Source of the DNA: a virus
Virus record (IMG/VR): IMGVR_UViG_3300034072_000879
Location: 1 to 54,889 of that record
Strand: one strand, 5' to 3'
DNA length: 54,889 bases
Shown here: piece after piece, positions 31,393-51,733 of the stretch
Numbering within the stretch: the stretch's first letter is position 1
Layout: each line of letters opens with the position of its first letter
Notes under the pieces: generated by a model
What the model was told of the DNA's origin: nothing
Databases searched by the model: none
What the model saw: only the letters and a program-made list of their open reading frames with translations
Made by a program: the position numbers and the translations under genes

Positions 31393-31418
31393 TGAGTCTA
31401 AATTCAAAGAGGACTTCG

Positions 31419-32081: not shown

Positions 32082-32085
32082 AATT

Positions 32086-37163: not shown

Positions 37164-37355
37164 ATGTCATCCCGTCATATCGTCAAAACTGCGGTAGGAC
37201 GTAGAATGCGAGAAATAGAGTTTTGGCTAAGAGAAGCAAACTTGGAAATTGTCCAAGATTATGACTATCTGGGTCGTGAGAGAGCTCGAGATGTCTTTGC
37301 CTTTGAAAGCAAACAGACTGCTATTCTTTTCAAGTTGACCTTTGGTAGTGAATAG
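37164..37355 (+). CDS. FKL-tail family protein
   Basis: 63 residues from ATG 37164, just after the preceding stop; ATGs at 37146 and 37149 are alternatives. Helix MREIEFWLREANL, then DVFAFESKQTAILFKLTFGSE carrying the full signature. An isolated member between an acidic protein and an HNH gene. Confidence 0.6.
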   Translation: MSSRHIVKTAVGRRMREIEFWLREANLEIVQDYDYLGRERARDVFAFESKQTAILFKLTFGSE

Positions 37356-38138: not shown

Positions 38139-39272
38139 ATGCTGGACAAGCTGATGACATCGGAAACGCGCAAGCTGGGCAAGGCTTTCGACATGGCCGG
38201 TTTCGAGATCCGTTTTGTTGGTGGTTGTGTTCGCGATGCCCTGCTGGGTGTGGTTCCCAAGGATGTGGACTTCTGCACCGACGCAACGCCCGACGAGATG
38301 AAGGCCATTGCCAACACCAACAAGTTCAAGTTCCTGCCCACTGGCGTGGCGCACGGCACGGCAACGCTGGTCGTTGATGACGAACCCTTTGAAGTCACCA
38401 CCCTGCGGGTTGACGTTGACACTGACGGTCGACACGCCGAGGTTGAGTTCACGCGGTCCTTTGAGGTCGATGCTGAACGGCGCGACCTGACCATCAACGC
38501 AATGAGCATGGACTTCAACGGTCTGGTTTACGACTACTTTGGTGGTCGTGAGGATCTGAAGAATAAGGTTGTGCGCTTTGTTGGTGTTTCGGAACTGCGG
38601 GTCCAGGAGGATTACCTGCGTATCCTGCGCTATTTCCGTTTTGCTGCTCGCTTCGACAGCACGATGAGCCAGGACGATCTGGATCTGTTCAGCGATGCCG
38701 ACGTTCTGGACAAGCTGAATCTGGTCAGTGTGGAGCGGTTCTGGCAGGAAATGAGCAAGCTGCTGGATCCCAAGATGCCGGCTCGGGTTCGGATTGTTGA
38801 CGCGATGTTCAAGACGGGTGTCAACCGTGCGCTGGGTGTTTTCCGGTTCAACCCTGTTGAACTGGCTCGGTCAGACGATGCGGTTGCTGCTCTGTCGACG
38901 CTGATCGCCAACACCGATGAAGAGAACTTCTTCAAGTTCTGGAAGCTGAGCAGTGCCGAAGAAGCCAAGGTGCGCAACCTGATTCGCAATCGCGGTCTGA
39001 ACTGGACCGAAGAGCGGGTTGAGGTTATGCTGACTCGCGACAAGTTCCCCCTGGATCATGTGGTTTCCATGCTGGAGATCGCAGGCGAGCCCTCGCTGGC
39101 ACGTCATGCCGAGGCTTTCAAGGTTCCCACTTTCCCGGTAACGGGCAAGGACCTGCTGGCACTGGGTATGAAGCCTGGTCCGGCAATGGGTCAGCGTCTG
39201 CGGATGCTGGAAAATGCCTGGGTTTTCAGTCGGTTTACTCGAACCAAGGAAGAACTACTGGCTATCGAGTAA
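38139..39272 (+). CDS. cca: CCA-adding enzyme / tRNA nucleotidyltransferase family (class II)
   Basis: 377 residues. Adds or repairs the 3' CCA of tRNA-like RNAs. Motifs: VGGCVRDALLG (about 25-35), KDVDFCTDA (metal-binding D-x-D type, about 40-48), AERRDLTINAM (about 114-124) and YLRILRYFRFAARF (about 163-176), all typical of the class II CCA enzyme/poly(A) polymerase group. Codons are strikingly G+C rich (CTG for nearly every Leu), unlike neighbours, which points to recent acquisition. An early promoter drives it, and the FKL-tail cassette starts in its stop codon. A phage tmRNA in the same genome offers a possible substrate. Confidence 0.85.
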   Translation: MLDKLMTSETRKLGKAFDMAGFEIRFVGGCVRDALLGVVPKDVDFCTDATPDEMKAIANTNKFKFLPTGVAHGTATLVVDDEPFEVTTLRVDVDTDGRHAEVEFTRSFEVDAERRDLTINAMSMDFNGLVYDYFGGREDLKNKVVRFVGVSELRVQEDYLRILRYFRFAARFDSTMSQDDLDLFSDADVLDKLNLVSVERFWQEMSKLLDPKMPARVRIVDAMFKTGVNRALGVFRFNPVELARSDDAVAALSTLIANTDEENFFKFWKLSSAEEAKVRNLIRNRGLNWTEERVEVMLTRDKFPLDHVVSMLEIAGEPSLARHAEAFKVPTFPVTGKDLLALGMKPGPAMGQRLRMLENAWVFSRFTRTKEELLAIE

Positions 39273-39535
39273 TGGTTTCTGTCAGTGTTCCTAGATCCAA
39301 TACACGAGTCTGGGAACCTACTGGACGGGTCAAGCTAACTCAGGAAGCTGAGCAATGGCTTGAGACCACAGTAGGTTCCCAGCAGTTTCGCCATCCTGAT
39401 CAACCTGAATACTATCCAGTCCGATCACACTGGGTGATTATAAACTCATATCACAGCTTGTCTTCGGCTAACGGAACTCGCATTTTCTTCAGCGACAAAG
39501 ATCATGCGGTTCTATTCAAGTTGACGTTTCTATGA
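39272..39535 (+). CDS. FKL-tail family protein, cassette 1 gene 1
   Basis: 87 residues, starting in the stop of cca (TAATG). The reference member: strand VSVSVPR, helix QEAEQWLETTVGS, a strand with WVIINSY, then FFSDKDHAVLFKLTFL. Shared plan of the family: a Trp in the middle helix, then an aromatic strand, a short acidic turn, DA (here HA), two residues, FKL, one residue, and an aromatic. Alternating strands and helices suggest one small alpha/beta domain. No known family is recognised. The stop overlaps the next start by four bases. Confidence 0.6.
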   Translation: MVSVSVPRSNTRVWEPTGRVKLTQEAEQWLETTVGSQQFRHPDQPEYYPVRSHWVIINSYHSLSSANGTRIFFSDKDHAVLFKLTFL

Positions 39536-39759
39536 TCCTTAAAATTCTAATACCGCTACCTAATGATAGGGTCTATACGAATCTAGATCGAAATGGATTC
39601 CCACAGGAAATTCATCAAGATGTCAAAGACTGGTTTACTACCAATCTTCGCGGTTCTATGTATAGAAGATCTACCTATGTTGATGGGCTATATGTGGGTG
39701 AGACTTGGGTCTTCAGTGATGCCAATACCGCAATGCTGTTCAAGCTAACGTTCCTATGA
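39532..39759 (+). CDS. FKL-tail family protein, cassette 1 gene 2
   Basis: 75 residues. Strand LKILIPLP, helix QDVKDWFTTNL, strand GETWVFSD, tail ANTAMLFKLTFL. ATGA overlap with both neighbours. The codons for FKLTFL differ synonymously from gene 1, so the peptide itself is kept. Confidence 0.6.
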   Translation: MILKILIPLPNDRVYTNLDRNGFPQEIHQDVKDWFTTNLRGSMYRRSTYVDGLYVGETWVFSDANTAMLFKLTFL

Positions 39760-39986
39760 AAAAGTATCATGTCACAGTGCCGGCCAATAATCCAACGGTA
39801 ATCAGGGGACGAAGAAATAATCCAGTGGCGACTCCTTTATTCAAACAATGGATGAAGGATCACAATACTGGTCGAGTTACGACCTCGGGATGGAACTTAG
39901 TTAAAACACCTGAACCTCATTTTGTGGTAACTTGGTATTTTAAAAAGCTTGACCATGCTTTGCTGTTTAAACTAACTTTCCTATGA
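39756..39986 (+). CDS. FKL-tail family protein, cassette 1 gene 3
   Basis: 76 residues, basic. Strand YHVTVPA, helix PLFKQWMKDHN, strand FVVTWYF, tail LDHALLFKLTFL. ATGA overlaps on both sides. Confidence 0.6.
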   Translation: MKKYHVTVPANNPTVIRGRRNNPVATPLFKQWMKDHNTGRVTTSGWNLVKTPEPHFVVTWYFKKLDHALLFKLTFL

Positions 39987-40273
39987 ATATATTTCTTTAC
40001 AATCGCAGCGAAACATTCAGGAACAAGACTGGGTTTTTCTCTGTTACCCTACCAGTAAATCACCCTGAGATTGAATCGTCATCATCGGTGCCATCGTTAT
40101 CTGACGAGATGCGCAGGTGGATAAGGGACCACTGCGAAAATGATGTCTATGTTTCAACCTATGAGCCAATATACATCAATGGCAACGACATCGCTTTTCA
40201 ATTTGTGGTTGACATCTGGTTTTCTGATGTCAATGAAGCTATATTGTTCAAGTTGACATGGAGTGGGCAGTGA
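39983..40273 (+). CDS. FKL-tail family protein, cassette 1 gene 4
   Basis: 96 residues. Strand FSVTLPV, helix EMRRWIRDHC, strand FQFVVDIWFSD, tail VNEAILFKLTWSGQ. Carries the W-G-type ending seen in cassette 2. Overlaps the next gene by 16 bases. Confidence 0.6.
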   Translation: MNIFLYNRSETFRNKTGFFSVTLPVNHPEIESSSSVPSLSDEMRRWIRDHCENDVYVSTYEPIYINGNDIAFQFVVDIWFSDVNEAILFKLTWSGQ

Positions 40274-40557
40274 GTCGGAAATATTGGGATATCAAGCACC
40301 GGCTGACTCCCACAGACCACCAGCGTCTTAGTGTCTGGAGACATCCCCATCGCCAGTCCCTCAAATATTACCAATATCGGATTGGACTGGTTCGCAAACC
40401 CAATATGGAAGAAACCATTTGGTTGAACAAACATACCAAAGCTTGTTACTCCATTGATAATACGACGACACCTCTCAATATATCTTTTGAAAACAAGCAA
40501 GATGCTATCTATTTCAAGTTAGTATGGCTAGGAACGCTTGCCTGTAAAACCCATTAG
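40258..40557 (+). CDS. FKL-tail family protein, cassette 1 gene 5 (divergent)
   Basis: 99 residues. More divergent: the Trp helix is hard to place, but the end ISFENKQDAIYFKLVWLG keeps the signature, followed by an 8-residue extension. Last gene of the cassette. Confidence 0.55.
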   Translation: MEWAVSRKYWDIKHRLTPTDHQRLSVWRHPHRQSLKYYQYRIGLVRKPNMEETIWLNKHTKACYSIDNTTTPLNISFENKQDAIYFKLVWLGTLACKTH

Positions 40558-40571
40558 TCAGAGGATCAATT

Positions 40572-40928
40572 ATGTATGACATTGAGGTAATCGACGGATC
40601 CAACTACGCGGTGATAAGCGAAGGATCACCTGCCTATGAATTTCTCAAAGTCATGAATTCCAGGTTGGTAATGAAGAAGTTGGCAAGCGAACCAGGCCAA
40701 GAGCTTTTTCTAACAGTCAGGGAGGTTGCTCCTATCTGTCGAGGCTTCAGGATTACTGAACTTCGCCGCCTTGAAAAAATTGGACTGATCAAGTCTGGCA
40801 TAGATTGGAACTGGTCCGATGACGCCCCCAAACCTATCAGTATGGAAACCTATACGTTCACCCCATATGGTCTAGACATCATGCGTCATATCAAAGAAAA
40901 TGGCGGTGATGTAGAGATCGAGATTTAA
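40572..40928 (+). CDS. Winged-helix-like small protein
   Basis: 118 residues. FLTVREVAPICRGFRITELRRLEK reads as a helix-turn-helix and METYTFTPYGLDIM as the wing and last helix, so a MarR/DNA-binding-type fold is likely. No known family. Converges on the minus gene ending at 40925 (four-base overlap). Confidence 0.5.
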   Translation: MYDIEVIDGSNYAVISEGSPAYEFLKVMNSRLVMKKLASEPGQELFLTVREVAPICRGFRITELRRLEKIGLIKSGIDWNWSDDAPKPISMETYTFTPYGLDIMRHIKENGGDVEIEI

Positions 40929-41200
40929 GGTTTCTCACCTAGCGGGTGATCTGGGATACAGGAGTCCCGCTGAACGCAAAGCATACACTTATCGTAGGGC
41001 ACTGACGCTTTATCGATCGCATCGATGATTTGGTGCTTGAAAGCCTCGAGAGAGATCATGATCGCCCCAGAAATCATTTGATTGATTTGGCTCTCAATCT
41101 GCCCATTTGCGTATTTGGTACCAGAGTCAGCGTACATGGACGCCAAAGCTTCTTTGAGCTTATCAGCATCTATATAGCGGGTTTGATTGTTACTTCCCAT
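40925..41200 (-). CDS. Small protein downstream of Smr gene
   Basis: 91 residues from ATG 41200 (MGSNNQTRYIDADK); a longer reading from 41257 overlaps the Smr gene too far. A helical N-half and a Cys-rich end (CMLCVQRDSC) that may bind zinc. RYIDADKL is a pattern often seen in small phage and bacterial proteins. The function is unknown. Confidence 0.5.
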   Translation of the reverse strand: MGSNNQTRYIDADKLKEALASMYADSGTKYANGQIESQINQMISGAIMISLEAFKHQIIDAIDKASVPYDKCMLCVQRDSCIPDHPLGEKP

Positions 41201-41544
41201 GATCCACCGTTTGAGAGTTGTTTGACCGATCTTACCAGAGCGTTTTTCTCTAGCCATCTTGGTAGTTCTTGGTTGATTTGTCCGGAACGTCCGGTGATGA
41301 TAATCAACCTCTTATATCCATTCTGAGAACCCTGATAGATATGTTCCTGTACTCTACCAAAAGCGTCGTGTATTGTAGCGCCGTGTAGGTCCATACGAGG
41401 GCTAAAAGGAACGCTACGGGGCTCGGCTACCCTAAGTCGAGCGAGGTTCTCACAGGGCTTCTCTGGGCGATTATCCAGAGGTGTCACATCCTTGGTAACC
41501 TGATCCCAAATAGCTTGGTCCTGTGGTGTTAAATTCTGTGACAT
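41170..41544 (-). CDS. Smr-domain nuclease-like protein
   Basis: 124 residues from ATG 41544, with AAGG seven bases upstream. The Smr domain fills the C-half: MDLHGATIHDAFGRV (D-L-H-G motif), then LIIITGRSG (T-G-x-G like) and LPRWLEKN. Smr domains nick DNA or cut mRNA on stalled ribosomes; either could fit a phage that also encodes a tmRNA. Co-directional with the following small gene. Confidence 0.75.
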   Translation of the reverse strand: MSQNLTPQDQAIWDQVTKDVTPLDNRPEKPCENLARLRVAEPRSVPFSPRMDLHGATIHDAFGRVQEHIYQGSQNGYKRLIIITGRSGQINQELPRWLEKNALVRSVKQLSNGGSWEVTIKPAI

Positions 41545-41604
41545 ATTGGACCTTATATGGTTCAATTCTGGTGAAGTCTATATTGCAGATTTTTGTCCAG
41601 TTCT

Positions 41605-41612
41605 ATATAAAT
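41605..41612 (+). promoter_or_regulatory. Possible promoter of queD
   Basis: A TATAAATG-like box at about 41605-41612 (close to the late box). TTGCAG 17 bases before it could also make it sigma70-like. About 55 bases before the queD start. Confidence 0.3.
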
Positions 41613-41664
41613 GAATGATAGAGGACGACGACTCATCCCTCTTTAAAGATTCTGTGTCACGAAA

Positions 41665-42219
41665 ATGAGAACCATAAAAATGGCAAAGTTTCAATCTACC
41701 AAGACCTACGGAACCGACCGTGGTCTCTCCTGTTGCTTCCGTCAGTGGAAGGCAAATCACTCGCACTGTTCTACGCTTCACGGATATAGTCTGGGCTTCA
41801 AGTTTGTCTTTGAATCAGAGACCCTTGATGAAAAGAACTGGTGTTTTGATTTTGGCGGTATGAAGCCAATTAAGGAATACCTAGACTATATGTTTGATCA
41901 CACTATCTTGGTCGCCAAGGATGATCCGGCCCTTGAAAAGTTCAAAGAGCTAGCCAGCTTTTCCATTCATTCTGTTTACGATGGCCTAGAACCTGACTCC
42001 GAAGCTGAGCCTTTTGAAGAAGGAAGGGTATGTAACCTCAGGATCGTTCCTGGTGTAGGATGTGAACTAACAGCAAAGTTGGTTTATGACAAAGCATCTG
42101 AACTACTGGAAAAGATGAAGACTGGCGAATTGGGTCGTTATGCTGTCAATCCGGACGTTCGTCTTGTTTCGGTGGAATGTTTTGAACATGGTTCAAATTC
42201 AGCCTTGTATATTGGCTGA
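41665..42219 (+). CDS. QueD-like 6-carboxytetrahydropterin synthase
   Basis: 184 residues; ATG 41680 is an alternative start and neither has a strong ribosome site. QueD makes 6-carboxytetrahydropterin, the second step toward 7-deazaguanine (preQ0). Seen: ANHSHCSTLHGY (catalytic Cys and zinc His region), then WCFDFGGMK and MFDHTILVAKDDP, in the family's order. The usual H-G-H is H-G-Y here, a change in one expected zinc ligand. No QueC or QueE is in the window. With the DpdA-like gene it points to hypermodified phage DNA. Confidence 0.75.
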   Translation: MRTIKMAKFQSTKTYGTDRGLSCCFRQWKANHSHCSTLHGYSLGFKFVFESETLDEKNWCFDFGGMKPIKEYLDYMFDHTILVAKDDPALEKFKELASFSIHSVYDGLEPDSEAEPFEEGRVCNLRIVPGVGCELTAKLVYDKASELLEKMKTGELGRYAVNPDVRLVSVECFEHGSNSALYIG

Positions 42220-42244
42220 TTTATCAGACTATCCGAAAACTATA

Positions 42245-42271
42245 GAGCCCGCCCTTATTAGGGGCGGGCTC
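42245..42271. terminator. Strong terminator
   Basis: GAGCCCGCCC (42245-42254) pairs with GGGCGGGCTC (42262-42271), then TTCTTTCTTTT. Ends queD; may also catch minus-strand transcripts. Confidence 0.85.
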
Positions 42272-42297
42272 TTCTTTCTTTTGAGTTTGTGGAAATC

Positions 42298-42840
42298 CTA
42301 GTTGCTGCCAGGCAACCTCGCGAACCAGTGGGCTCCGATACGAACTTTGTTAACCAGGTTTCTAGCCCATGATTGATTGAGCGATCGACTAAAATGTGTC
42401 GCTCCGTTCGTAGGATCATTCATTCTCTCACCTGTAAGAATCAGGGCAGCTTTGCGTTGGCTTTCTGCCCATGCTGACTTCTCACGCGGTATCTGTGCTT
42501 TCATTGGCTTACGAGTCCAAGAGAACTGGCTTGGCGACCAAACAACAGCACAAACCGAACGAGCACGAAACGCGCTCCGTTTTGTTCTATTGATAGTCAC
42601 AAACGCCACCGCCCACTGATCTCGAGAAGTCCCCCCTCGAATCTCATGATAGATGTTAAGTGCCATACATAACATCTGGTCCTGATCGGTCGCATTGGCT
42701 TGCTGAATCTGAGGAATCAGTGGTCCAGCTTTGCGAACCGCAGTATGCAGCCCCTGGTATCTAGTAAGTGTTCCTGCTTCGGCTGGTTTTGGCGTTAGCA
42801 AACAGAACAAGAAAAGCATCATTAATCCAAAAAATCTCAA
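42298..42840 (-). CDS. SleB-type cell-wall hydrolase (probable endolysin) with signal peptide
   Basis: 180 residues. Start TTG 42840, chosen for GAGG six bases before it. A signal peptide (about 1-22, LFLFCLLTPKPAEA) directs it to the periplasm. The Hydrolase_2/SleB domain follows: CMALNIYHEIRGG (catalytic Glu), WAVAFVTINRTK, CAVVWSPSQFSWT, and DPTNGATHF. It cleaves peptidoglycan for lysis. Early-type promoter 30 bases upstream. Confidence 0.8.
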   Translation of the reverse strand: MRFFGLMMLFLFCLLTPKPAEAGTLTRYQGLHTAVRKAGPLIPQIQQANATDQDQMLCMALNIYHEIRGGTSRDQWAVAFVTINRTKRSAFRARSVCAVVWSPSQFSWTRKPMKAQIPREKSAWAESQRKAALILTGERMNDPTNGATHFSRSLNQSWARNLVNKVRIGAHWFARLPGSN

Positions 42841-42873
42841 CCATCACCTCATGAATTGTTGATCCGAACTCCC

Positions 42874-42903
42874 TTTATACCTCGGAGAGAGGTTGGATGT
42901 CAA
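42874..42903 (-). promoter_or_regulatory. Early-type sigma70 promoter
   Basis: On the minus strand, TTGACA (42898-42903), 18-base spacer, TATAAA (42874-42879), directed to the SleB gene. Confidence 0.5.
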
Positions 42904-42909
42904 CAAAAC

Positions 42910-43506
42910 CTACAAGGTATGTCGGTCATCCAAGCTCAGAAGTTGCTCACCTACGATGAGTTTGAACATGAGAACATCTGATAGCTTATCCAAATAGAGA
43001 AAGGTGCGTGGTTTTGTTACCAGCTTGACTGGGCCTGATAGCTTATCAAGTTCAGCAACATTGTCAGCATCCAATCCCCATTTTGAATCTTTAAACTCGA
43101 ACCGCCATCCGAACTCTCCATAAAACTTCGCTTTGGGGCGAGGCTTGGGAAGACTAAGATGCCAGCACGATCTGTCGACAATGCGGATATGATTGAATGT
43201 AAACATGGACTGATGACGGATGAACCAGCGAAGCATATTAGGATCGCTGGAAAAAGCATTAAACTGATAGGTCCGCTGATTGCTTTGAATTGTGGCATTC
43301 ATGGGTTCAAAAACTCCATGAAGAAATTGTTTGATTTCCCGCCAATCGCCCCAATGGGCCAGATTCAAAGATAAGCCAATACTATAGGCGTACTGCCCAA
43401 AGTATAGTGGTCTGCGAAGAGTCTCGATCTGTGACTCATCTAGCAGGCTACGATCTACCAACGCATTACACGCTTTATGGATTCTCTGTTCAAAGGTCCA
43501 AGGCAT
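42910..43506 (-). CDS. Long protein with FKL-like tail
   Basis: 198 residues, twice the usual length. The last 35 residues (RTFLYLDKLSDVLMFKLIVG plus a 13-residue extension) match the FKL-tail signature. The N-terminal half has a Trp/His-rich region (LAHWGDWREIKQFLHGVF) of unknown fold. It may be two fused units. The ATG has only a weak ribosome site. Confidence 0.55.
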   Translation of the reverse strand: MPWTFEQRIHKACNALVDRSLLDESQIETLRRPLYFGQYAYSIGLSLNLAHWGDWREIKQFLHGVFEPMNATIQSNQRTYQFNAFSSDPNMLRWFIRHQSMFTFNHIRIVDRSCWHLSLPKPRPKAKFYGEFGWRFEFKDSKWGLDADNVAELDKLSGPVKLVTKPRTFLYLDKLSDVLMFKLIVGEQLLSLDDRHTL

Positions 43507-43556
43507 TCGTTCTGTCTAGCAAAGTCTCCTTTCTATCACAATACTTATCTAGAAGC

Positions 43557-43584
43557 TTGACAGACGTTATCTAGAGTATACAAC
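43557..43584 (+). promoter_or_regulatory. Early-type sigma70 promoter
   Basis: TTGACA (43557-43562), 16-base spacer, TACAAC (43579-43584), then AGGAGG and ATG 43607. Confidence 0.6.
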
Positions 43585-43606
43585 CTGTCTTGTGATAGGA
43601 GGCTTC

Positions 43607-44059
43607 ATGGATACCGAGGTTGATACTCAATTACTGGATGAAATAAGTCAGCAGTTTCTGAGAGTAGTCAACCTTACGTTTGGAGCGGAGACCGCCAATC
43701 AAGCGATTTCTGCGCTTGAAGGAACGCTGGGCAAGGCATGGAAGGATCGTGTGGTCCTCAACAAGCTATCCAATCTATATCAAGTCACTAGCAGAATTTC
43801 ATTTCGCCTTGTTGATGATGCTCTTTATCGAAGCGGTGGATCCGGCATTGGATTCAAGATCCGGGCCATAAAGAGCCTGCGGAGCATGACCAATTTGGGC
43901 TTGGTGGCATCAAAGGCGGCTATCGAAAGAGCAGAGACATCAGTCCAAATTGCTGAACTGGAACGTTCGGCAGGTGAGGATTCGCTGGGTCGTGAAAAGA
44001 GTATACTGGACGGCATAGAAGAGCTGCGCCAGTGTGGATTTGAGGTCAACTTCGCATGA
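43607..44059 (+). CDS. Protein with bL12 C-terminal-domain-like fold
   Basis: 150 residues, AGGAGG before ATG 43607. GFKIRAIKSLRSMTNLGLVA then SKAAIERAE (about 81-110), and the end ILDGIEELRQCGFEVNF, match the helix pattern of ribosomal protein bL12's C-terminal domain (KxxVIKxVRxxTGLGLKEAK... ALEEAGAxVE). The N-terminal half does not look like the bL12 dimer domain; it may hold a second, worn copy. bL12 recruits translation factors, so a stalk mimic is possible. Confidence 0.5.
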   Translation: MDTEVDTQLLDEISQQFLRVVNLTFGAETANQAISALEGTLGKAWKDRVVLNKLSNLYQVTSRISFRLVDDALYRSGGSGIGFKIRAIKSLRSMTNLGLVASKAAIERAETSVQIAELERSAGEDSLGREKSILDGIEELRQCGFEVNFA

Positions 44060-44289
44060 GTATTCTTGCTGATATCCGTAAACAGTTGATGGGTAAATCT
44101 GAGTCAACTGAGCAGGAGATTCTTAGTGAGGGTTCTGCTATCACGGATATGTGGAATCAAATACAAGATCTCAAGCTGGAAATGAATCAAGCAAAACGAT
44201 TGGCAGCAGAAGAAGCCGCCAAACCATATCTTGAAGCAATCGAAAAGATCGAAAAGCGATATGCGATGTTTTTGAAACTTCAAAGCTAA
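44056..44289 (+). CDS. Small coiled-coil protein
   Basis: 77 residues, ATGA overlap with the bL12-like gene. The C-half is one long helix (MWNQIQDLKLEMNQAKRLAA...). Probably acts with its neighbour. The function is unknown. Confidence 0.55.
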   Translation: MSILADIRKQLMGKSESTEQEILSEGSAITDMWNQIQDLKLEMNQAKRLAAEEAAKPYLEAIEKIEKRYAMFLKLQS

Positions 44290-44300
44290 AAGAGGGATTT

Positions 44301-45176
44301 ATGAGTAAGATTTCAGCTGACAACAAAGATATCAAATTCCCTTCACATCATTATGTGGGGTTTCAAAGCCGCCCTTCTCAGGATAACTGCCCGCTTGGGT
44401 TTATGACTCCAGACGGCACTGACGCTGCGGCTAAGAAGCGCAAGGAAAGTGTCGACAAATGGGCAACTCCATATCAGTATCATGGTCAGCCCAAACAGGA
44501 AAAAGTCCCCAGTGTTACCTATGAAAACAAGCCCATGGTGGGTTTCAAGCTTTCACGAGAAATTCGGCGTTCAAGTAGCTTTGGGCAAGGAAATGTCAAA
44601 TGGCGGATTGAAGACCCGCGTGGGTTTGAGCTGGAAATTTCCAGCCCCAACTTTGCTCAGATCATCATGAACTGTACCCTGGAAAGGGGTGAGATTCAGG
44701 AACAGTTGATTTGGGGTCGGCTCGGATCAGAGAATGTTTTGGTTCCTGTTGATAGTGATGCCTATCGCGCCGCTCAGCAGAATACGGAGCGAGTAGCCAA
44801 GAAGGCCAGCCTCAAAGACCTCAAGCTTGGCGACAAAGTTGTCATGCAGAACGGCAACGAAGGAATCTTCTACGGAAAGTTTTATCTCATTTATAGCTCT
44901 TATAGCCACTCCAGTATTGCTCAGATACTAGGTGACAAACAACGCTGGCTCTTCAAGAACGGTGATAGCTGGGATAGCGTCGCAACGCCCAAGTTGGCTG
45001 AAATCATTCCCGGAGACGGCTCTCTGACGCAGGAAGCCGCCGAGAAAGAGATCAATGCGGCTTGTATCAAGACTATTAAGACCAACCATTATCATTCAGC
45101 TGTAAGCGAAACTAGCCCCAGCTACCGGGGTCGAATTTCAGCTGTAACAACCCAGCCGCCAAAAAAAGTGATCTGA
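44301..45176 (+). CDS. Uncharacterised protein of large phages
   Basis: 291 residues, AGAGGG before the ATG. MVGFKLSREIRRSSSFGQGN and WRIEDPRGFELEISS (about 78-115) recall uncharacterised proteins of other large phages. The middle (about 175-225) is KOW/SH3-like (LGDKVVMQNGNEGIFYG). No catalytic motif recognised. Confidence 0.5.
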   Translation: MSKISADNKDIKFPSHHYVGFQSRPSQDNCPLGFMTPDGTDAAAKKRKESVDKWATPYQYHGQPKQEKVPSVTYENKPMVGFKLSREIRRSSSFGQGNVKWRIEDPRGFELEISSPNFAQIIMNCTLERGEIQEQLIWGRLGSENVLVPVDSDAYRAAQQNTERVAKKASLKDLKLGDKVVMQNGNEGIFYGKFYLIYSSYSHSSIAQILGDKQRWLFKNGDSWDSVATPKLAEIIPGDGSLTQEAAEKEINAACIKTIKTNHYHSAVSETSPSYRGRISAVTTQPPKKVI

Positions 45177-45202
45177 TCATTATACCGGAGACTCTGCCGT
45201 TT

Positions 45203-45553
45203 GTGGAAGCCAGCAAATATAAAAAGGGGATATTCTTTGGCTTCATGCCTGGACAGAAAGATCGCTGGTGCTCTTTCTCGATGAATCAGTATCATGAAAC
45301 TTGTGCTCGAAATCGCAACGGTTTTGATAAAGTTTGGATCTATTCATGGGACAAGGACAAAATCGATAACGATTGTGAGTTTGTCAGCACCCAACCGGCA
45401 AGAACCCTTAGTTATGGATATAACCGAAGTCTACACGAGCCTGAACGTCAACCACATACCCACATGCCTGATGAGGTGACCAAGTATACTATCAAGATCA
45501 AGACCACCCATAGTGGAGATATCGTGTTGGTGGATGATAACTTTGATTACTGA
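45203..45553 (+). CDS. Small protein, GTG start
   Basis: 116 residues. Beta-rich first half with aromatic residues (GIFFGFMPGQKDRWCSF). Ends next to a bidirectional terminator. Start uncertain: GTG 45203 with a GGAG about 14 bases upstream. No family recognised. Confidence 0.45.
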   Translation: MEASKYKKGIFFGFMPGQKDRWCSFSMNQYHETCARNRNGFDKVWIYSWDKDKIDNDCEFVSTQPARTLSYGYNRSLHEPERQPHTHMPDEVTKYTIKIKTTHSGDIVLVDDNFDY

Positions 45554-45560
45554 TAAAGAA

Positions 45561-45583
45561 ATGGGGAGGCTGAGCCTCCCCAT
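45561..45583. terminator. Bidirectional terminator
   Basis: ATGGGGAGGC (45561-45570) pairs with GCCTCCCCAT (45574-45583), between the convergent genes ending at 45553 and 45588. Confidence 0.75.
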
Positions 45584-45587
45584 TTGC

Positions 45588-46937
45588 TTAGAACTTGGTC
45601 TTTTTTAGAGCCTCTACTTCTGATCGGTAGATGGACTTTCGCTCCTCAGGATCCTTTAGAATACGCTTGTATTCCTTAATGTTAGCTTCTAGCTCTTTGA
45701 TTTTGGCCAAAACATCACCATACGCATCCTTGGTCCAACGATGAGCTGGGAGATTGACGATGCGGTCAATACGCTTGTTATCAAGGGCAAGCTTTGATGT
45801 AACGTTGTTGACGTCCTGATCTAGTTCAGATCGACTCTTGATAGCACCTAGTCGAGCAGGAAGTTTATCATCAAAGCAAAGCTTGACCCCCTTCCAAAAA
45901 CCTAGTTCGTATTCGTCCTTGGCCACCTTGTTTTCATAACGGGTCTTATACCATCCCAGGCGCCATTCAACGAAGTCTTCAACGAGCTTTTCGGCGCTTT
46001 CATACTGACGAATAGAAGATCCATTCCAGTCGATAACGACAATACGCTCTGACTTCTTCTGTTTGAGTTTGAAATATTCAATAGCTCTAGTAAGAGACCA
46101 ACCCTTACAAGATCCTCTAGCCATTTTGATTGTGATATCAATGGTATCGGTTGAACGATCAGTATATGAAGAAATCTTATTTTCGTCTTCATAGGTGTTG
46201 AGACGTTCTTTGAATTTCTCTAACGTGAGTTCTGGAGGCAGTTCGGTAACTTTGATCGTGCTAGTATCAACAATCTCCAACTTACCAGTGAACTCCCAAG
46301 AATTATCCTCTAGGTGTTTGACCCCCACGTCGTAGAGATCATAGGAGGGAGGAATACGCTTGATCTTTTTTCCGTCTAAAATGGCCAATGTGGCGTCTAC
46401 GAGGCTCTTAAAGGATCTGGGTAAGATCTCGGTAGACCAACCAACAGCAATGCCTGAGACTCCATTTAAGAGCACTGTTGGGATGAGGGGAAGGAAGTTT
46501 TGGGGTTCGATAGTGGAACCGTCATAATTTTCTTTGACCGGTACGATATCAAGATCCATAAACATAAGATCTTGGGCCGCTTTTCCACGTTTGACATAGG
46601 TATATCGCGGAGCGCCGATACCGTCTACCGGTGCCACTCGGGTTCCAAACGAACCAATACCTTCCAAAAGTGGAACATTGTTAACATATGGAGCAGCCAA
46701 CATGCTGATAGCCCCGGCCGCACTTTGGTCACCGTGTAGATAAAGGCCACTGGAAATCATTTCACCGGCTAGCGAAACGGTTTTTGTTTTATCTGATCTA
46801 TTGCGAACCAACCATAACGCCTTACGTTGGGCGTCTTTGAGACCGTCAGCAACTTTTGGAATAGCCCTAGACTCACAGGTATAAACAGAATACTCTCTTG
46901 AAGTATCCAAAATGTATTGACTAGATGTCTGATTCAT
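45588..46937 (-). CDS. DNA topoisomerase II medium subunit (T4 gp52-like)
   Basis: 449 residues (T4 gp52 442). The DNA-cleaving A-type subunit. IPKVADGLKDAQRKALWLV (about 26-44) is the GyrA/ParC signature, GAPRYTYVKRG (about 109-119) holds the active-site Tyr, and LNGVSGIAVGWSTE follows. A coiled coil region is near the C-terminus. The gene starts inside the end of the homing endonuclease gene (17-base overlap). A diverged copy of its first 25 codons lies upstream at 47928, behind the original-looking promoter. Confidence 0.9.
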   Translation of the reverse strand: MNQTSSQYILDTSREYSVYTCESRAIPKVADGLKDAQRKALWLVRNRSDKTKTVSLAGEMISSGLYLHGDQSAAGAISMLAAPYVNNVPLLEGIGSFGTRVAPVDGIGAPRYTYVKRGKAAQDLMFMDLDIVPVKENYDGSTIEPQNFLPLIPTVLLNGVSGIAVGWSTEILPRSFKSLVDATLAILDGKKIKRIPPSYDLYDVGVKHLEDNSWEFTGKLEIVDTSTIKVTELPPELTLEKFKERLNTYEDENKISSYTDRSTDTIDITIKMARGSCKGWSLTRAIEYFKLKQKKSERIVVIDWNGSSIRQYESAEKLVEDFVEWRLGWYKTRYENKVAKDEYELGFWKGVKLCFDDKLPARLGAIKSRSELDQDVNNVTSKLALDNKRIDRIVNLPAHRWTKDAYGDVLAKIKELEANIKEYKRILKDPEERKSIYRSEVEALKKTKF

Positions 46938-47814
46938 TATTTATGCCTCTAAAAGGTTCACCAGTCTCCCATACTGCTATAACAGTATATCCGGCATTCT
47001 GGATATCGTTAATCCGATCAATAGTGTTCTGATAGAGTTCGCCGTAGGTCTTCTTAGTTACTCGGTTCATTTCAGTCTGATCAAAATATTTAGGATGACC
47101 GTGCCAGAAAATACCTAGGAACTCGTAGACGGTATCACCATCTAAGCCATCAACAAAATAGGACTTTCCACTCTTACCAACGACACCCTTCTGACGATGA
47201 TCTATACCTTGTTCGTCGAGCCATTTAGTTTCACCGTTGGAAACGTTCTTACAACGATTCTTTCCATATTTGCGCTCACAAGTAAGTATCATCTTCTGCC
47301 TGAATTCTTCACACTTTCCAGGATTGTCTACTCCATAGCGTTCAAGAAGAGTTGCCTTCAGTCTAGATTGAAACTCGTCAGTGCTGAACCAATGTTCTTT
47401 ACCAAAACTTTCTAGGTTACGCTGTCTTTGTTGATTCATCAGATCTGCATCTTTTGTCCAATGGTCGACACCGAGACGATTCAAATAGGTCTGACGTTTA
47501 CGTTCTTGAATCTCTTCAGAGAAAGATGGATTAGTCACACCATAGTTCTGCTTCAGCGTATCAGACGCCTTGGCTCTGAACATCTGACTAGTCACGACAT
47601 ACTCAGATCCATATTTAGAAAGATTTGTTTCTCGAACCTTTCTATTAATCTCCTCACTTTTGCGAGGATTGTCAACTCCATATTTGTCCAAGTATGCTTG
47701 CTTTTTCTTGTCCTTAACTGCGGAGCAACCATTGCTGCTCTTCGAGCAGCACCATTTACCAATCTTCAATTTGAAGATCGCGGGACTATTACAGCCATAT
47801 TCGCATTTGCTCAT
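46921..47814 (-). CDS. Homing endonuclease inserted at the gp52 locus
   Basis: 297 residues. N-terminal zinc cluster (CEYGCNS, CCSKSSNGC), then several repeats built on KYGVDNP or NYGVTNP (about 40-210), a DNA-contact unit seen in homing nucleases. The C-terminal nuclease domain has VDGLDGDTVYEFLGIFWHG and TYGELYQNTIDRI with VIAVWE, a PD-(D/E)XK/Vsr-like pattern shared with the gene at 53686. GAGG precedes the ATG. Its position between an abandoned 5' end of gene 52 and the intact gene marks it as a mobile element. Confidence 0.75.
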   Translation of the reverse strand: MSKCEYGCNSPAIFKLKIGKWCCSKSSNGCSAVKDKKKQAYLDKYGVDNPRKSEEINRKVRETNLSKYGSEYVVTSQMFRAKASDTLKQNYGVTNPSFSEEIQERKRQTYLNRLGVDHWTKDADLMNQQRQRNLESFGKEHWFSTDEFQSRLKATLLERYGVDNPGKCEEFRQKMILTCERKYGKNRCKNVSNGETKWLDEQGIDHRQKGVVGKSGKSYFVDGLDGDTVYEFLGIFWHGHPKYFDQTEMNRVTKKTYGELYQNTIDRINDIQNAGYTVIAVWETGEPFRGINNESDI

Positions 47815-47832
47815 AGATACCTCACTTAGAAG

Positions 47833-47839
47833 TATTTAT
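47833..47839 (-). promoter_or_regulatory. Late-type box ATAAATA (minus)
   Basis: ATAAATA on the minus strand, 18 bases before the endonuclease start and overlapping the stop of the gp52 remnant. Confidence 0.4.
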
Positions 47840-47928
47840 CACAAACATAGATGGCGGCTTTCACAAACGTAAATTGAGTATTCGCGACTGGTGTCTAGGA
47901 TATAATCTGATGAGCTATTTTGATTCAT
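47839..47928 (-). pseudogene. Remnant of the gp52 5' end
   Basis: 29 codons. Translation gives MNQNSSSD, then YILDTSREYS-I-Y-V-CESR, then four unrelated residues and TGA. The intact gp52 begins MNQTSSQ, then YILDTSREYS-V-Y-T-CESR. Of the shared residues nearly all use different synonymous codons. AGAGG sits six bases before its ATG, and a CTAAATA box lies 54 bases upstream, so it kept the expression signals. Confidence 0.8.
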
Positions 47929-47981
47929 TAGAGGCCTCTGTTTATGTGTGTATTTTACTTATTACACCAGGGGCACGTCTA

Positions 47982-47988
47982 TATTTAG
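47982..47988 (-). promoter_or_regulatory. Late-type box CTAAATA (minus)
   Basis: CTAAATA on the minus strand, 54 bases before the gp52 remnant; probably the original gp52 promoter. The 150 bases between hold only the remnant. Confidence 0.45.
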
Positions 47989-47989
47989 G

Positions 47990-48274
47990 TTAGCAGAGAT
48001 CTCCACCAGGACGAGGCACAGGATCGTTCTCCATAACAGATTCCTTGCTGGTCCAACTGAGTATGAATAATGCTGCTAGTCCACGGTTGGGCATATAGAA
48101 TTCAATATGACCAGGACAGGTGTTTATATCATATCGTGGACGCTTGCCCATATACTCAATAAACCATTCGACCATATCAGTTCTGAGGCCAACACTAACC
48201 ATTAGTTGGTTTATGTCATTAAAGTAGTGAAATCGCTGCGAGCAGAGATCATATGGGAGTCTACAGGTTATCAT
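47990..48274 (-). CDS. FKL-tail family protein, divergent, last of cassette 2
   Basis: 94 residues. Helix MVEWFIEYMG and strand GHIEFYMPN are kept, but the tail reads AALFILSWTS, losing the Lys, and a 20-residue Pro/Gly extension follows. Possibly relaxed selection at the cassette end. Overlaps the gene before it by 14 bases. Confidence 0.55.
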   Translation of the reverse strand: MITCRLPYDLCSQRFHYFNDINQLMVSVGLRTDMVEWFIEYMGKRPRYDINTCPGHIEFYMPNRGLAALFILSWTSKESVMENDPVPRPGGDLC

Positions 48275-48626
48275 ACCAGGTCAGCTTGAAAATTAAGGCT
48301 TTGTGACGATCCCTGATTCGGAAATCTAGATAAAGGCTTCCTCCCTTGAAGCTAGAATATCCTTTTTCCCATCTGCTTCCTTGGTATAGCCAATCACCAT
48401 GACCCTCCTCCCAGAAATGGTGAGGAGCAGTATCTCCAACATTTCTGTCTAACCAATCCTTGAGATCCAAAGAAAAGCCATGTCGATGAAAGCCGTTTAC
48501 TTTACCGCTATATGGGCTCTGAGAAGGTCCTGGAATGCTTATTTTGTATCCTTGGGTCAGTTTGATACTTTTGCCTATATGATCCGGTATTGAGCGACCG
48601 GTAGGCCCTATAGACGTCCCATCCAA
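48261..48626 (-). CDS. FKL-tail family protein, cassette 2
   Basis: About 121 residues. The open frame reaches ATG 48755, but that would overlap the preceding gene by 148 bases; TTG 48626 gives a 19-base overlap like its neighbours and is preferred, weakly. Helix LKDWLDRNVG, strand YLDFRIRDRH, tail KALIFKLTWYDNL. Confidence 0.5.
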   Translation of the reverse strand: MDGTSIGPTGRSIPDHIGKSIKLTQGYKISIPGPSQSPYSGKVNGFHRHGFSLDLKDWLDRNVGDTAPHHFWEEGHGDWLYQGSRWEKGYSSFKGGSLYLDFRIRDRHKALIFKLTWYDNL

Positions 48627-48967
48627 GTCAGTTTGAACAATAATGCCTGACTCGCTGATCTGAACTGGAGAGTCACGGTCTGTTGTGAGCGATTCTTGCG
48701 ACTCTGGCTTCCTAAATAAATCCACTGACCATCCTCGGGGTTTCCGTTGTCCCAAAGCTCACGATTTTGACATTGGGGGCCAAAGGTTTGCTTTAGCCAT
48801 TGATGAGCTTCATGGGATATACCATGTTTCCAATAGAAATTGCGTGAATCGAATCTATACTTGAATTTTTGATCGATGAATCCAATCCTCAGACGTGTTC
48901 CAGAGACTACCCTAACGGATACTCTCTCTGCGCCCTCATGCGCTGGGCCAGGCTCAATCTCCTCCAC
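48608..48967 (-). CDS. FKL-tail family protein, cassette 2
   Basis: 119 residues from GTG 48967. Helix AHQWLKQTFG, a strand with QWIYLGSQ, tail ASQALLFKLTWMGRL. Overlaps the preceding gene by 14 bases; the start codon is uncertain. Confidence 0.55.
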   Translation of the reverse strand: MEEIEPGPAHEGAERVSVRVVSGTRLRIGFIDQKFKYRFDSRNFYWKHGISHEAHQWLKQTFGPQCQNRELWDNGNPEDGQWIYLGSQSRKNRSQQTVTLQFRSASQALLFKLTWMGRL

Positions 48968-49319
48968 ACGCGATCTTTAGCATCAAGGCGTCCGCTTTCC
49001 TAGCCATATAGAATGGAGGCGGAGGACCAGCTATGATTTTCCCACCGTATGGTCCCGGAGCAGTGCTAAAGTCGACCCGTCTAGTCTGGTAGACATAGTC
49101 ACATGCCTTATATGAGATTCCAAAGAATGATGCTTCCGGCAAATTTACTAGAAAATTCTGAACCTTAGAGCGCATCACATAAAATGGTCCCTGAAGCTCT
49201 TCGCCCCTCAACGGACCACCTCCGGCCTGAGTCTGATGCTTGGCATAAGCCTCGCTCCAGTCAACTCGATAGGGTCTTAGGATTCGCCACCAAACCCTAG
49301 TTATTTTCATCTCGGACAC
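48954..49319 (-). CDS. FKL-tail family protein, cassette 2, altered tail
   Basis: 121 residues from GTG 49319, with GGAGG seven bases before it encoded by the previous gene's G-G-K end. The tail is KADALMLKIACGGD: Phe of FKL is Leu and Leu is Ile. The N-half has a Trp-rich strand (RVWWRILRPYRVDW). Confidence 0.55.
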   Translation of the reverse strand: MSEMKITRVWWRILRPYRVDWSEAYAKHQTQAGGGPLRGEELQGPFYVMRSKVQNFLVNLPEASFFGISYKACDYVYQTRRVDFSTAPGPYGGKIIAGPPPPFYMARKADALMLKIACGGD

Positions 49320-49589
49320 TTATTTGCCTCCAAACATCATCTTAAACAACACCGCTTCAGAAGTTTTGGCAAAAGACCACCGAGAATACCCGGCAGAATA
49401 CCACTCATGAGAGCAGTAGGTTTCGCACCATTCCTCCATTTCATAAAGCATCTGACGAACGGCCTCGCGTTCGTTTATGGCATTGAGAGAACGACCCGAC
49501 TGGGTATCGGGATAATGAATCGTGACTTCAGCAGCCTGTGGCCACTGGCTTCGTTTCCCCTTGTACTTACGGGGAGGGCTCCAAGACAT
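49320..49589 (-). CDS. FKL-tail family protein, cassette 2
   Basis: 89 residues, GGAG before ATG 49589. Helix MEEWCETYCSHEWY, strand RWSFAKT, tail SEAVLFKMMFGGK. First of a second sub-block, after an 83-base gap that contains a hairpin. Confidence 0.6.
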   Translation of the reverse strand: MSWSPPRKYKGKRSQWPQAAEVTIHYPDTQSGRSLNAINEREAVRQMLYEMEEWCETYCSHEWYSAGYSRWSFAKTSEAVLFKMMFGGK

Positions 49590-49601
49590 AATAATACTCC
49601 A

Positions 49602-49621
49602 GGAAGCGGGATTGCTTCCTA
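49602..49621 (-). terminator. Short hairpin in the cassette gap
   Basis: AGGAAGC pairs with GCTTCCT around six bases (about 49602-49621), in the gap splitting cassette 2. No T-run. Confidence 0.35.
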
Positions 49622-49672
49622 GTGTTCGCTGTGAAGGGCTGCTCGATAACTCATATGCCCTCTTCTAAGCTC

Positions 49673-49873
49673 TTACTTGATTACGTCAACCGATACTATG
49701 GTATCAATGGACTCGCCGTTGTTTTCGTTCTTGATCCATCGCTTTGCGGCAGCTCTTGCTTTGTGCTCATCAAAATTATAAGCCCAAAAGACGTTTCTGA
49801 CGTTGTTACCGTTTGGAAACAATGATGAAATCGTAATTTTCCATAATCTACAACTAAACATAATGTTACCCAT
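49673..49873 (-). CDS. Small protein inside cassette 2, no FKL tail
   Basis: 66 residues, overlapping the previous gene by 8 bases; ATG 49861 is an alternative. NVFWAYNFDEHKARAAAKRW is a strand plus helix different from the FKL plan, and it ends SVDVIK. The only non-family gene in the cassette. Confidence 0.45.
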   Translation of the reverse strand: MGNIMFSCRLWKITISSLFPNGNNVRNVFWAYNFDEHKARAAAKRWIKNENNGESIDTIVSVDVIK

Positions 49874-50147
49874 GGGTTAACTTAAAAAGCAATGCGTCAC
49901 TTGGGTTATCAAACCAAATCTCTAATCTAGAGGTGGGGTTGAGTTGATAGCTTCCTGAACAATTTTCAAAGCACCATTGACCACACGTATCTAGTATTTC
50001 ATCAGCTAGATTACTCAAACTCATAGGGCATCGGCCTTCTAGCTTGGCATTGTCTAAAAGGCGCGAAGCTATAGACGAGCCAAGACCTACAGAAATAATC
50101 CAGTAATGTTTGTTATCAACATCACATTCAAAGACACTGCTACTCAA
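49866..50147 (-). CDS. FKL-tail family protein, cassette 2
   Basis: 93 residues from TTG 50147, favoured because GGGGAGG lies six bases before it; ATG 50162 is the alternative. Strand HYWIISVG, helix TCGQWCFENC, strand RLEIWFDNP, tail SDALLFKLTHG. Confidence 0.55.
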   Translation of the reverse strand: MSSSVFECDVDNKHYWIISVGLGSSIASRLLDNAKLEGRCPMSLSNLADEILDTCGQWCFENCSGSYQLNPTSRLEIWFDNPSDALLFKLTHG

Positions 50148-50440
50148 GGGGAACCTCCCCATCTAAGCTTGAAAATCATAGCATCTTGCTCATCGGCAAA
50201 ATATACTCTGAACTGATGTCTTTGAATAGAACTAAACATATTCGTGGGATGGTCCTCAGTGCCACATCGTGGCATCTTGCCCTGGCCGCTTATGACGACA
50301 ATACTATTGGTCATTTCTTCTAGCCATTCCCTGACTTCTCGCTTTTTATCCTTTAGGTTAAGGCAAAAGCTTATGGTTTCAGGATCCAGATACCAACCTA
50401 CTTGATCTTCCCGATCCACTATGTAGATTTTCTGATTCAT
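50144..50440 (-). CDS. FKL-tail family protein, cassette 2
   Basis: 98 residues from ATG 50440, which overlaps the previous stop as ATGA. Helix VREWLEEMTN, strand FRVYFADE, tail QDAMIFKLRWGGSP. The codons of W-G-G spell the ribosome site of the next gene. Confidence 0.6.
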   Translation of the reverse strand: MNQKIYIVDREDQVGWYLDPETISFCLNLKDKKREVREWLEEMTNSIVVISGQGKMPRCGTEDHPTNMFSSIQRHQFRVYFADEQDAMIFKLRWGGSP

Positions 50441-50688
50441 TGGAACCACGCTAACTCAAAACGTTCAGCGTCCGTTTTGGTTTGAAACCAAGCAGTGAAT
50501 TCAACAGATCTGTTGAGCTTTCCCTTGGAACCATTAAACAACACAAAATCATATTGCATATGATGAACCAGGTGTTCCCGAGCCCATTTACAAATGATTT
50601 CCTCATTGAATTTCATGTCAGAGAACGTGATTACTTTTTTGAATAGCAGCTTTTTTGGCGGAGTGCCATTTCGGTGAACCGTTCCCAT
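50437..50688 (-). CDS. FKL-tail family protein, cassette 2, altered tail
   Basis: 83 residues from ATG 50688 (a GTG one codon earlier is possible). Helix IICKWAREHL, strand VEFTAWFQT, tail KTDAERFELAWFQ: Lys of FKL is Glu. Confidence 0.55.
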   Translation of the reverse strand: MGTVHRNGTPPKKLLFKKVITFSDMKFNEEIICKWAREHLVHHMQYDFVLFNGSKGKLNRSVEFTAWFQTKTDAERFELAWFQ

Positions 50689-50891
50689 CACAACCTCAAC
50701 TTGAAAATCATTGCGTGTTCTTTCGAAGGAAAGGCCAGACCGTGGAGATCTTGTCTTCCTCTGTAGATAAAGGCCACCTTGTTTTTGATACCCATATCTT
50801 CCAGTAGGGCCCAGGCTCGAAAATATTGATCAGATCCCAAAGATATAGGGGGATTGAATCTTAGATATCCAGGATCGGGCGGTCTAGGCAT
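50688..50891 (-). CDS. FKL-tail family protein, cassette 2, short
   Basis: 67 residues. Strand/turn GYLRFNPP, helix YFRAWALLEDMG, strand LHGLAFPS, tail KEHAMIFKLRL. Overlaps the previous gene by 8 bases. Confidence 0.6.
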   Translation of the reverse strand: MPRPPDPGYLRFNPPISLGSDQYFRAWALLEDMGIKNKVAFIYRGRQDLHGLAFPSKEHAMIFKLRL

Positions 50892-51162
50892 TGTGCCATC
50901 TCAACTTAAAAAGCATAGCATCTGCTGATTCAGCAAATGTTATTTGAATAGCGATCTGAGTATAGCCAAGACCAAAATGTCTTATTCCACTATTCTTACA
51001 CCAGTGACTTAGTTCGTCAATAATTCTGGTAGCAAATTGGTTCCACGATTTTTCATAGGTTTCTAGAATTTGAAATTCTACACCCAAGAGTTCGCCTAGT
51101 CGCCAGGCATTAATAGAGCTTCCTGCATCTTGGCGACTTCTGGTGAAAACAAACTGCTTCAC
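50884..51162 (-). CDS. FKL-tail family protein, cassette 2
   Basis: 92 residues from GTG 51162, which overlaps the previous stop as GTGA and follows GGGGAGGAGA; a TTG at 51174 is less likely. Helix ELSHWCKNSG, strand IAIQITFAES, tail ADAMLFKLRWHNA. Confidence 0.6.
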   Translation of the reverse strand: MKQFVFTRSRQDAGSSINAWRLGELLGVEFQILETYEKSWNQFATRIIDELSHWCKNSGIRHFGLGYTQIAIQITFAESADAMLFKLRWHNA

Positions 51163-51449
51163 TCTCCTCCCCAAATCAGTTTGAAAAGTAAAGCTTTTCT
51201 TCTATCTTTGAACATGAATTTTCTATAATCTGATAGTCTGCCATCTTGCCATTCAAACCCTAGATAACACCATTGATAATCATCGTCGTCATGTGATAGA
51301 AGCCAAGCGTGAAAATTGTAGAGGCCTTTACCAACATTAGTCTCTAGCCATTCAACACACTCGTTGCTCAACTTTGATGGGGCATAGTCGTTGTTTGATG
51401 GACTCCTAGATGCCATCCAAATTGTTATGTAGTCGTAATCTGATTCCAT
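51159..51449 (-). CDS. FKL-tail family protein, cassette 2
   Basis: 96 residues, ATG in the previous stop (TAATG). Strand YITIWMAS, helix CVEWLETNVG, strand RKFMFKD, tail RRKALLFKLIWGGE. Confidence 0.6.
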   Translation of the reverse strand: MESDYDYITIWMASRSPSNNDYAPSKLSNECVEWLETNVGKGLYNFHAWLLSHDDDDYQWCYLGFEWQDGRLSDYRKFMFKDRRKALLFKLIWGGE

Positions 51450-51733
51450 TATCCACCCCAGGTAAGCTTAAACAGAACCGCGTCAGACTGGTTTGTAAAG
51501 GCAAAGCCTGATTTACCCCTGATATTGACCGGTCTTGGAACCGAAGAGCAGTGGTGTCGACACCATCTCTGTATGACAGCAAGACCATAGTTTATCTGGT
51601 GGGCGTCAACCCCATTGGGGGTGTTGGAAAGATCAACACCCCCAATTTCCGCAATTCGCTCTAGTGTTATAAAGGCAATTATGTCATCTTCACTAGGGGA
51701 ATACCATATTGAAAGCCAGTCATGATAGCTCAT
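51449..51733 (-). CDS. FKL-tail family protein, first of cassette 2
   Basis: 94 residues. Strand WLSIWYSP, helix AVIQRWCRHHC, strand SGFAFTNQ, tail SDAVLFKLTWGG. It starts 13 bases after the stop of the topoisomerase large subunit, so the cassette is read from that operon. Confidence 0.6.
   Translation of the reverse strand: MSYHDWLSIWYSPSEDDIIAFITLERIAEIGGVDLSNTPNGVDAHQINYGLAVIQRWCRHHCSSVPRPVNIRGKSGFAFTNQSDAVLFKLTWGG

Follow-up and report, generated by a model that had tools for sequence, protein, structure and literature searches.

What does a phage do with rows of small, overlapping genes whose products all end alike? The question is raised by a virus record of 54,889 bases with T4-like genes (IMG/VR record IMGVR_UViG_3300034072_000879), analysed here over its whole length and called the window below. 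Tandem open reading frames (ORFs) that share a C-terminal strand followed by (D/E)A-x-x-FKL-x-W/F are present on both of its strands, at the positions where they had first been noted. We provisionally call the unit that they encode the FKL domain, predicted to begin with a strand and a helix that holds a nearly invariant Trp, and to continue with two strands and a final helix carrying A-x-x-F-K-L-x-W.

The ORFs form one homologous family. A profile was built from 347 seeds picked by the tail motif alone, followed by one round of search, with membership set at E ≤ 0.01. Starting from nothing but the tail, it finds 18 ORFs in the window and none among reversed proteins. The seeds also led the profile to an upstream helix with a conserved Trp, in agreement with the Trp-bearing middle helix of the original prediction: Trp plus a hydrophobic residue is found upstream of the tail in 93% of the 347 seeds, versus 59% of shuffles and 32% of control ORFs, so the helix is independent support for the family and not a matter of composition alone. 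At the DNA level, the exact pattern for A-x-x-F-K-L has 24–55 matches per genome in five near-complete relatives, and the pattern read backwards has 0–1. A few members are longer or have a second, weak domain match.

On one explanation, the tail would serve chiefly at the nucleotide level, coupling the translation of the overlapping genes, and would not be a protein feature. WGG codons can indeed supply a Shine-Dalgarno sequence to the next gene, as at position 51162 of the window, and Shine-Dalgarno-like bases occur in the tail DNA of 52% of tandem genes, compared with 34% of others and 26% of control ORFs. But such bases leave the FKL residues unexplained; the FKL codons vary synonymously, as had been claimed; the canonical tail is found in 70% of non-tandem members versus 79% of tandem ones; and the upstream Trp helix and the predicted fold accompany it. 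As isolated members keep the tail, a nucleotide signal is refuted as its sole cause, and we consider it extremely improbable as the main one.

AlphaFold2 predicts the same beta-alpha-beta-beta-alpha fold for two divergent paralogs, encoded at 39983–40273 (predicted local distance difference test score, pLDDT, 79; predicted template modelling score, pTM, 0.69) and 39756–39986 (pLDDT 77, pTM 0.60), in line with the suggestion that the family shares one alpha/beta fold. FKL lies within the last helix in both models. The idea that the proteins carry a common docking tail thus stands only in part: in the predicted domain the tail forms the last helix and is not a flexible appendage of its own, and the nearly invariant Lys of FKL, the one exception among otherwise hydrophobic conserved positions, leaves docking possible. 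This Lys, which is not needed at a core position, would suit adaptors that use a common docking helix to bring varied targets to one shared machine, for example phage-encoded Clp-type proteases. Two isolates of the window's phage group, Atu_ph07 and AP-J-162, have six or seven proteins of the Clp family (PMC6102473, PMC11242549), and genes judged by eye to be Clp ATPase- and DnaJ-like lie beside one locus encoding a capsid-peptide carrier (region A, see below). We nevertheless regard the adaptor explanation as quite unlikely: the tail belongs to the fold and is not free, no direct link to Clp was found, and Atu_ph07 has the Clp genes but only four or five members.

No named family had been recognised, and none emerged from our searches. 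Pfam, PHROGs, NCBIfam and PADLOC gave no convincing match common to many members, only isolated weak ones, each to a single member. In PDB, the best E value is 0.99 by profile search and 0.36 by Foldseek; in BFVD, the top structure matches are uncharacterised small phage proteins, none reaching E 0.001. A literature search for such a protein family found none, nor is one mentioned in the papers on Atu_ph07 and AP-J-162 (PMC6102473, PMC11242549), which were searched by term. The FKL family is therefore new to the libraries searched, while gene-family expansion in phages as such is already known. A zinc ribbon was considered and rejected, as the proteins show no zinc-binding cysteines (Cys makes up 1.3% of residues, equal to the background, and the consensus has no conserved Cys). 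A large set of small alpha/beta proteins might also bind nucleic acids and regulate genes of the phage or its host, having expanded as the transcription-factor-like families of other jumbo phages did, with the zinc ribbon of Bacillus phage G (PMC7824862) as a precedent. This appears distinctly improbable, with a mean net charge of −0.7 (above +3 in 18% of members), no enrichment of Cys and no match to a DNA-binding family at the curated cut-off.

How widespread is the family? By its genes, the window is assigned to the T4-like jumbo phages of Alphaproteobacteria. Genes for ribonucleotide reductase, helicase and primase were read by eye (the reductase also matches phage records), the identity of the topoisomerase is backed by database matches, and the nearest isolates by topoisomerase are Sinorhizobium phage Phosso (70%) and Agrobacterium phage Atu_ph07 (60%). 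A near sibling is the 436 kb metagenome phage G003 (median 99% identity over 29 core genes). Members at E ≤ 0.01 number 106 in G004, 91 in G002, 88 in G003 and 62 in Phosso, all near-complete relatives, and take up 8.4%, 6.0%, 6.3% and 4.6% of these records, respectively; the reversed control found none. In several jumbo phages, one unnamed domain thus accounts for about 5 to 8% of the genome, and no larger family described for a phage was found in the literature searched. IMG/VR, scanned with a DNA pattern for DA-x-x-FKLTW, yielded 92 stretches, many of which lie on contigs of 277–524 kb. With a second profile, 26 to 57 members were found in seven further records, and 50 in a 524 kb contig besides these. 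Atu_ph07 has only four or five members, as said, and a profile search found none in T4, P-HM2, BcepSauron, phiM12, phiM9, phiCbK and RaK2. With many copies in one lineage and few or none in relatives, this is a lineage-specific gene family expansion in a jumbo phage.

Outside this lineage copies are few. Prophages and provirus contigs, including those of Rhizobium and Novosphingobium, hold one to three copies, several of them near genes judged by eye to be tail-fibre-like or lysozyme-like. Two of the seven bacterial loci found by DNA pattern hold clear members; the others are chance or doubtful. In 398 genomes from the order of the Rhizobium carrier, scanning with the profile found none at E ≤ 1e-5, which shows rarity at best, as the known Rhizobium carrier itself scores only 1.3e-5. 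When single members were compared by tblastn with 50,697 phage records, Phosso was the only phage with real members that was reached; the weak hits on phages of Pectobacterium and others appear to be due to chance. In the stretches examined, the depositors of Phosso labelled the member ORFs as hypothetical proteins. Larger proteins with an FKL-like C-terminal end are encoded in G004 (381432–383045, 534 residues, no Pfam match, relatives in G002 and G003) and Phosso (404633–405685, 336 residues); they might show the domain's origin.

Members are arranged in head-to-tail overlapping arrays, the largest of which has two arms that converge (with 51 genes over 16 kb in G004, 39 genes in G002 and 35 in G003). 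In the window and in G002, G003 and G004, one array (47990–51733 of the window) separates the genes for the two topoisomerase subunits. Members are also present in this gap in Phosso; Atu_ph07 lacks the cassette, and its topoisomerase genes are adjacent. Reciprocal best hits give 45–52 pairs among G002, G003 and G004, at a median identity of about 39% and mostly in the same order, and about half of the members have orthologs in related phages; within one genome, only about a third match another member at E < 1e-5. Orthologs that keep their order at such identity, together with few matches within genomes, indicate that the expansion probably predates the split of these phages. The ratio of nonsynonymous to synonymous substitution rates (dN/dS), pooled over 13 pairs between the window and G003, is 0.18, compared with 0.054 for core genes; by this measure the members are under purifying selection, about three-fold more relaxed than that on core genes. 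The bodies of the proteins had been described as highly variable; free variation is not supported in view of the orthologs, their order and this selection, and a hypervariable or shuffling arsenal is rejected on the same grounds.

Do any members carry recognisable pieces of other proteins? All members were compared by BLAST with the other proteins of the same phages, against shuffles (best shuffled E 0.065). The only clear donor is the major capsid protein, gp23. In some copies, all outside the window, pieces of about 20–55 residues from two of its regions are fused at either end of the FKL domain. Region A (residues about 80–120 of the phages' own gp23 ORF; 98–132 of T4 gp23) stands after the domain in G001, G002, G004, G008, G010 and G011 and before it in G006 and G020; in the carriers of G008, G010 and G011, the FKL part is weak (E 0.035–0.11) and was judged from the alignment with the others. 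It is also found on small proteins with no detected FKL domain in Phosso, G007 and G012. Region B, around an APYVPL motif, comes before the domain in Phosso; in G001 (where the FKL match is very weak, E 1.3, and was judged from the alignment), G002, G003, G004, G010 and G011, it comes after the domain. The curated cut-off of Pfam Gp23 is exceeded by eight FKL-bearing or FKL-like carriers and by one small ORF that stands alone, over about 38–63 residues each; most region-B cases are too short for that cut-off and rest on recurrence. The carriers are not Gp23 major capsid proteins (PF07068) themselves, as these fragments cover only about 38–63 residues of a 376-position profile. Among six region-A carriers, the peptide is 61% identical pairwise and the FKL domain 39%, which argues against a decaying remnant. 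Capsid peptides have apparently been grafted more than once.

That two separate regions of gp23 recur, both among its best conserved parts in the alignment made here, would also fit a structural or morphogenetic family that decorates, sizes or helps to fold a large capsid, with the gp23 segments docking or competing in assembly. We think this unlikely, as the fused pieces are too short for a capsid subunit, a hundred different decoration proteins would be unusual, and members are few or lacking in phages of this clade that have a capsid protein of the same kind (Atu_ph07).

Three further observations concern the carriers. In G012 (82072–82324), two neighbouring ORFs, L240 and L220, encode proteins of 76 and 68 residues with capsid regions B and A, respectively, and no FKL domain; they share a C-terminus (NPK-H/N-CYE), and they follow the true capsid gene at a distance of 2.5 kb. 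A third peptide (FKK-x-x-LN-x-x-YG) may be shared by an FKL protein and another small protein in G002 (450565–451200) and G003 (422392–423054); the case is weak, with E 0.017 against the best shuffled value given above. The Clp ATPase- and DnaJ-like genes are on the strand opposite to the region-A carrier in G004 (157726–161073) and G002 (445956–449816).

The reading that we favour, with a confidence that is about evenly balanced, is one homologous family of small binding scaffolds multiplied for accessory host-takeover or defence-evasion roles, with some members presenting capsid peptides. Its family and fold are computational, as are the supports from copy number, order conservation, purifying selection and capsid-peptide fusions; from these we infer a binding role, its targets, its timing and its benefit. 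A binding scaffold is most likely rather than an enzyme, since no catalytic-looking residues are conserved. We would place the multiplication of the domain in the ancestors of a single group of T4-like jumbo phages that infect Alphaproteobacteria. That many copies are kept as distinct, order-conserved genes implies different jobs, and each copy may bind its own host or phage target via variable loops and extensions. The patchy distribution, with no members in most of the related phages tested, suggests accessory functions, presumably within a programme of host takeover or defence evasion. The common last helix would fold the domain and may be a shared interface, and the copies fused to gp23 pieces would engage whatever recognises the capsid protein, be it a sensor, a chaperone or a translation factor.

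A bolder version is that the FKL domain is a general scaffold presenting peptides copied from the phage's own proteins, which would occupy capsid-recognising host sensors or factors before the real capsid protein is made, making a decoy system of up to about 100 copies. We regard it as doubtful; EF-Tu, chaperone or assembly partners of the gp23 peptides may equally be the targets. Several points weigh against the scaffold reading as well. Most members have no recognisable peptide; the window contains no carrier, and in its sibling G003 region B is carried and region A is not. Fused copies may thus be a specialised minority. A conserved order and purifying selection fit poorly with rapidly evolving anti-defence genes; confidence in the two structure models is medium, and their alignments share many sequences, so that they are not fully independent; and the expansion of one gene family need not imply one functional theme. 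Of the arsenal proposed in the original prediction, the expansion is supported and the freely variable bodies are not; anti-defence or host-takeover roles are plausible, with the capsid-peptide fusions as the only specific lead.

At least 21 tail-bearing ORFs had been listed in the window, of which the profile supports 18. On the + strand, a five-gene cassette consists of the ORFs at 39272–39535, 39532–39759, 39756–39986, 39983–40273 (E 1.8e-14) and 40258–40557 (94% ortholog in G003), all with profile matches; the third and fourth are the two paralogs modelled above. Another + strand member (37164–37355, 63 residues, start picked by eye) has a profile match and a 93% ortholog in G003. The ORF at 27030–27215 (+, 61 residues), which adjoins a transfer-messenger RNA (tmRNA) gene, is borderline (E 0.03) and has a G002 homolog, and that at 42910–43506 (−) is unsupported (E 2.8) and probably not a member, although the gene is conserved in relatives (37% identical in Phosso). 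An isolated member of 115 residues is encoded at 54437–54784 (−, E 1.5e-12).

The remaining ORFs form the topoisomerase cassette, all on the − strand. The first gene, behind that of the large subunit, is at 51449–51733 (E 1.6e-11; 99% in G003), followed by 51159–51449 (E 1.8e-13), 50884–51162 (E 3.7e-11; a GTG start at 51162 behind GGGGAGG, itself in the WGG codons of the preceding gene), 50688–50891 (the shortest of the cassette, 67 residues, E 0.003), 50437–50688 (tail RFELAW, E 1.6e-4 in profile round 2; G004 ortholog 69%), the strongly conserved 50144–50449 (E 4.5e-12; 98% in G003, dN/dS 0.02) and 49866–50162 (E 1.9e-12). The ORF at 49673–49873 is a doubtful member, with the Trp helix, no tail and no profile match, and has homologs in G002, G003 and G004. 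Beyond it are 49320–49589 (E 5.5e-14; G004 ortholog 54%), 48954–49319, 48608–48967 (E 6.5e-11), 48261–48626 (E 1.9e-10; probable TTG start near 48626, longest ORF to 48755) and 47990–48274 (degenerate tail LFILSW, E 1.7e-5 in profile round 2). The profile misses 48954–49319 (tail MLKIACGG), but this diverged member is homologous (E about 6e-9) to G002_236143, a clear member with a canonical tail. Several gene starts fall downstream of the longest-ORF start, as in the genes at 48261 and 50884.

The cassette is flanked by the genes for the topoisomerase large subunit (51747–53630, −; 70% identical to an annotated Phosso protein) and a small, subunit A-like one (45588–46937, −; Pfam DNA_topoisoIV). 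A 29-codon ORF at 47841–47928 (−; MNQNSSSDYILDTSREYSIYVCESRHLCL) duplicates the start of the small subunit gene, from which it is separated by a DUF7487 gene (46921–47814); the repeat is perhaps a trace of a mobile-element insertion. Elsewhere in the window, the tmRNA gene at 26463–26883 (+) is permuted and of alphaproteobacterial type (Rfam RF04321 and RF01849), and the tag peptide given for it by ARAGORN may be unreliable. Consecutive genes for YqiJ-like, flotillin and TelA (toxic anion resistance) proteins (28883–33288, +; Pfam) are a possible membrane or stress module. A sensor-like protein of 556 residues (8505–10175, −) has several PAS domains and no kinase match in Pfam.

Compared with known proteins, the members are closest in predicted structure to small BFVD proteins such as A0A6J5LK55 and A0A482MMM8 of BcepSauron (Foldseek probability up to 0.99); A0A6J5LK55 and A0A6J5L5R8 are among the top matches for both models, while BcepSauron, despite its structure match, has no profile match. 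The nearest precedent for the expansion is the zinc ribbon of Bacillus phage G, present in about 35 copies and called unprecedented there (PMC7824862). There too, a single small domain has expanded in one jumbo phage lineage; the FKL family differs in having no zinc-binding cysteines, up to 106 copies and other hosts. With the FKL family described, hundreds of hypothetical proteins can be grouped, given a predicted fold and assigned an accessory role that can be tested.

A literature search for capsid decoys of the kind considered above found none; several bacterial defences do sense capsid proteins. CapRel and staphylococcal Thoeris recognise major capsid proteins (PMC9712102, PMC11312562); they show that bacteria can do so, and differ from the FKL carriers in being host defences. 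The grafts make a question testable: do phages carry decoys of proteins that are sensed by bacterial defences? Lit senses the phage capsid protein through the Gol region of T4 gp23, 29 residues in the first quarter of the protein (PMC3014915). A decoy specific to Lit is weakened by the presence of Lit (Peptidase_U49) in only one of 151 genomes of the Rhizobium carrier's family (Rhizobiaceae), bearing in mind that the hosts of the metagenome phages may differ. Compared by rough position, region A of the carriers, homologous to residues 98–132 of T4 gp23, falls in the same first quarter as Gol; the difference is that here it stands on a separate small protein.

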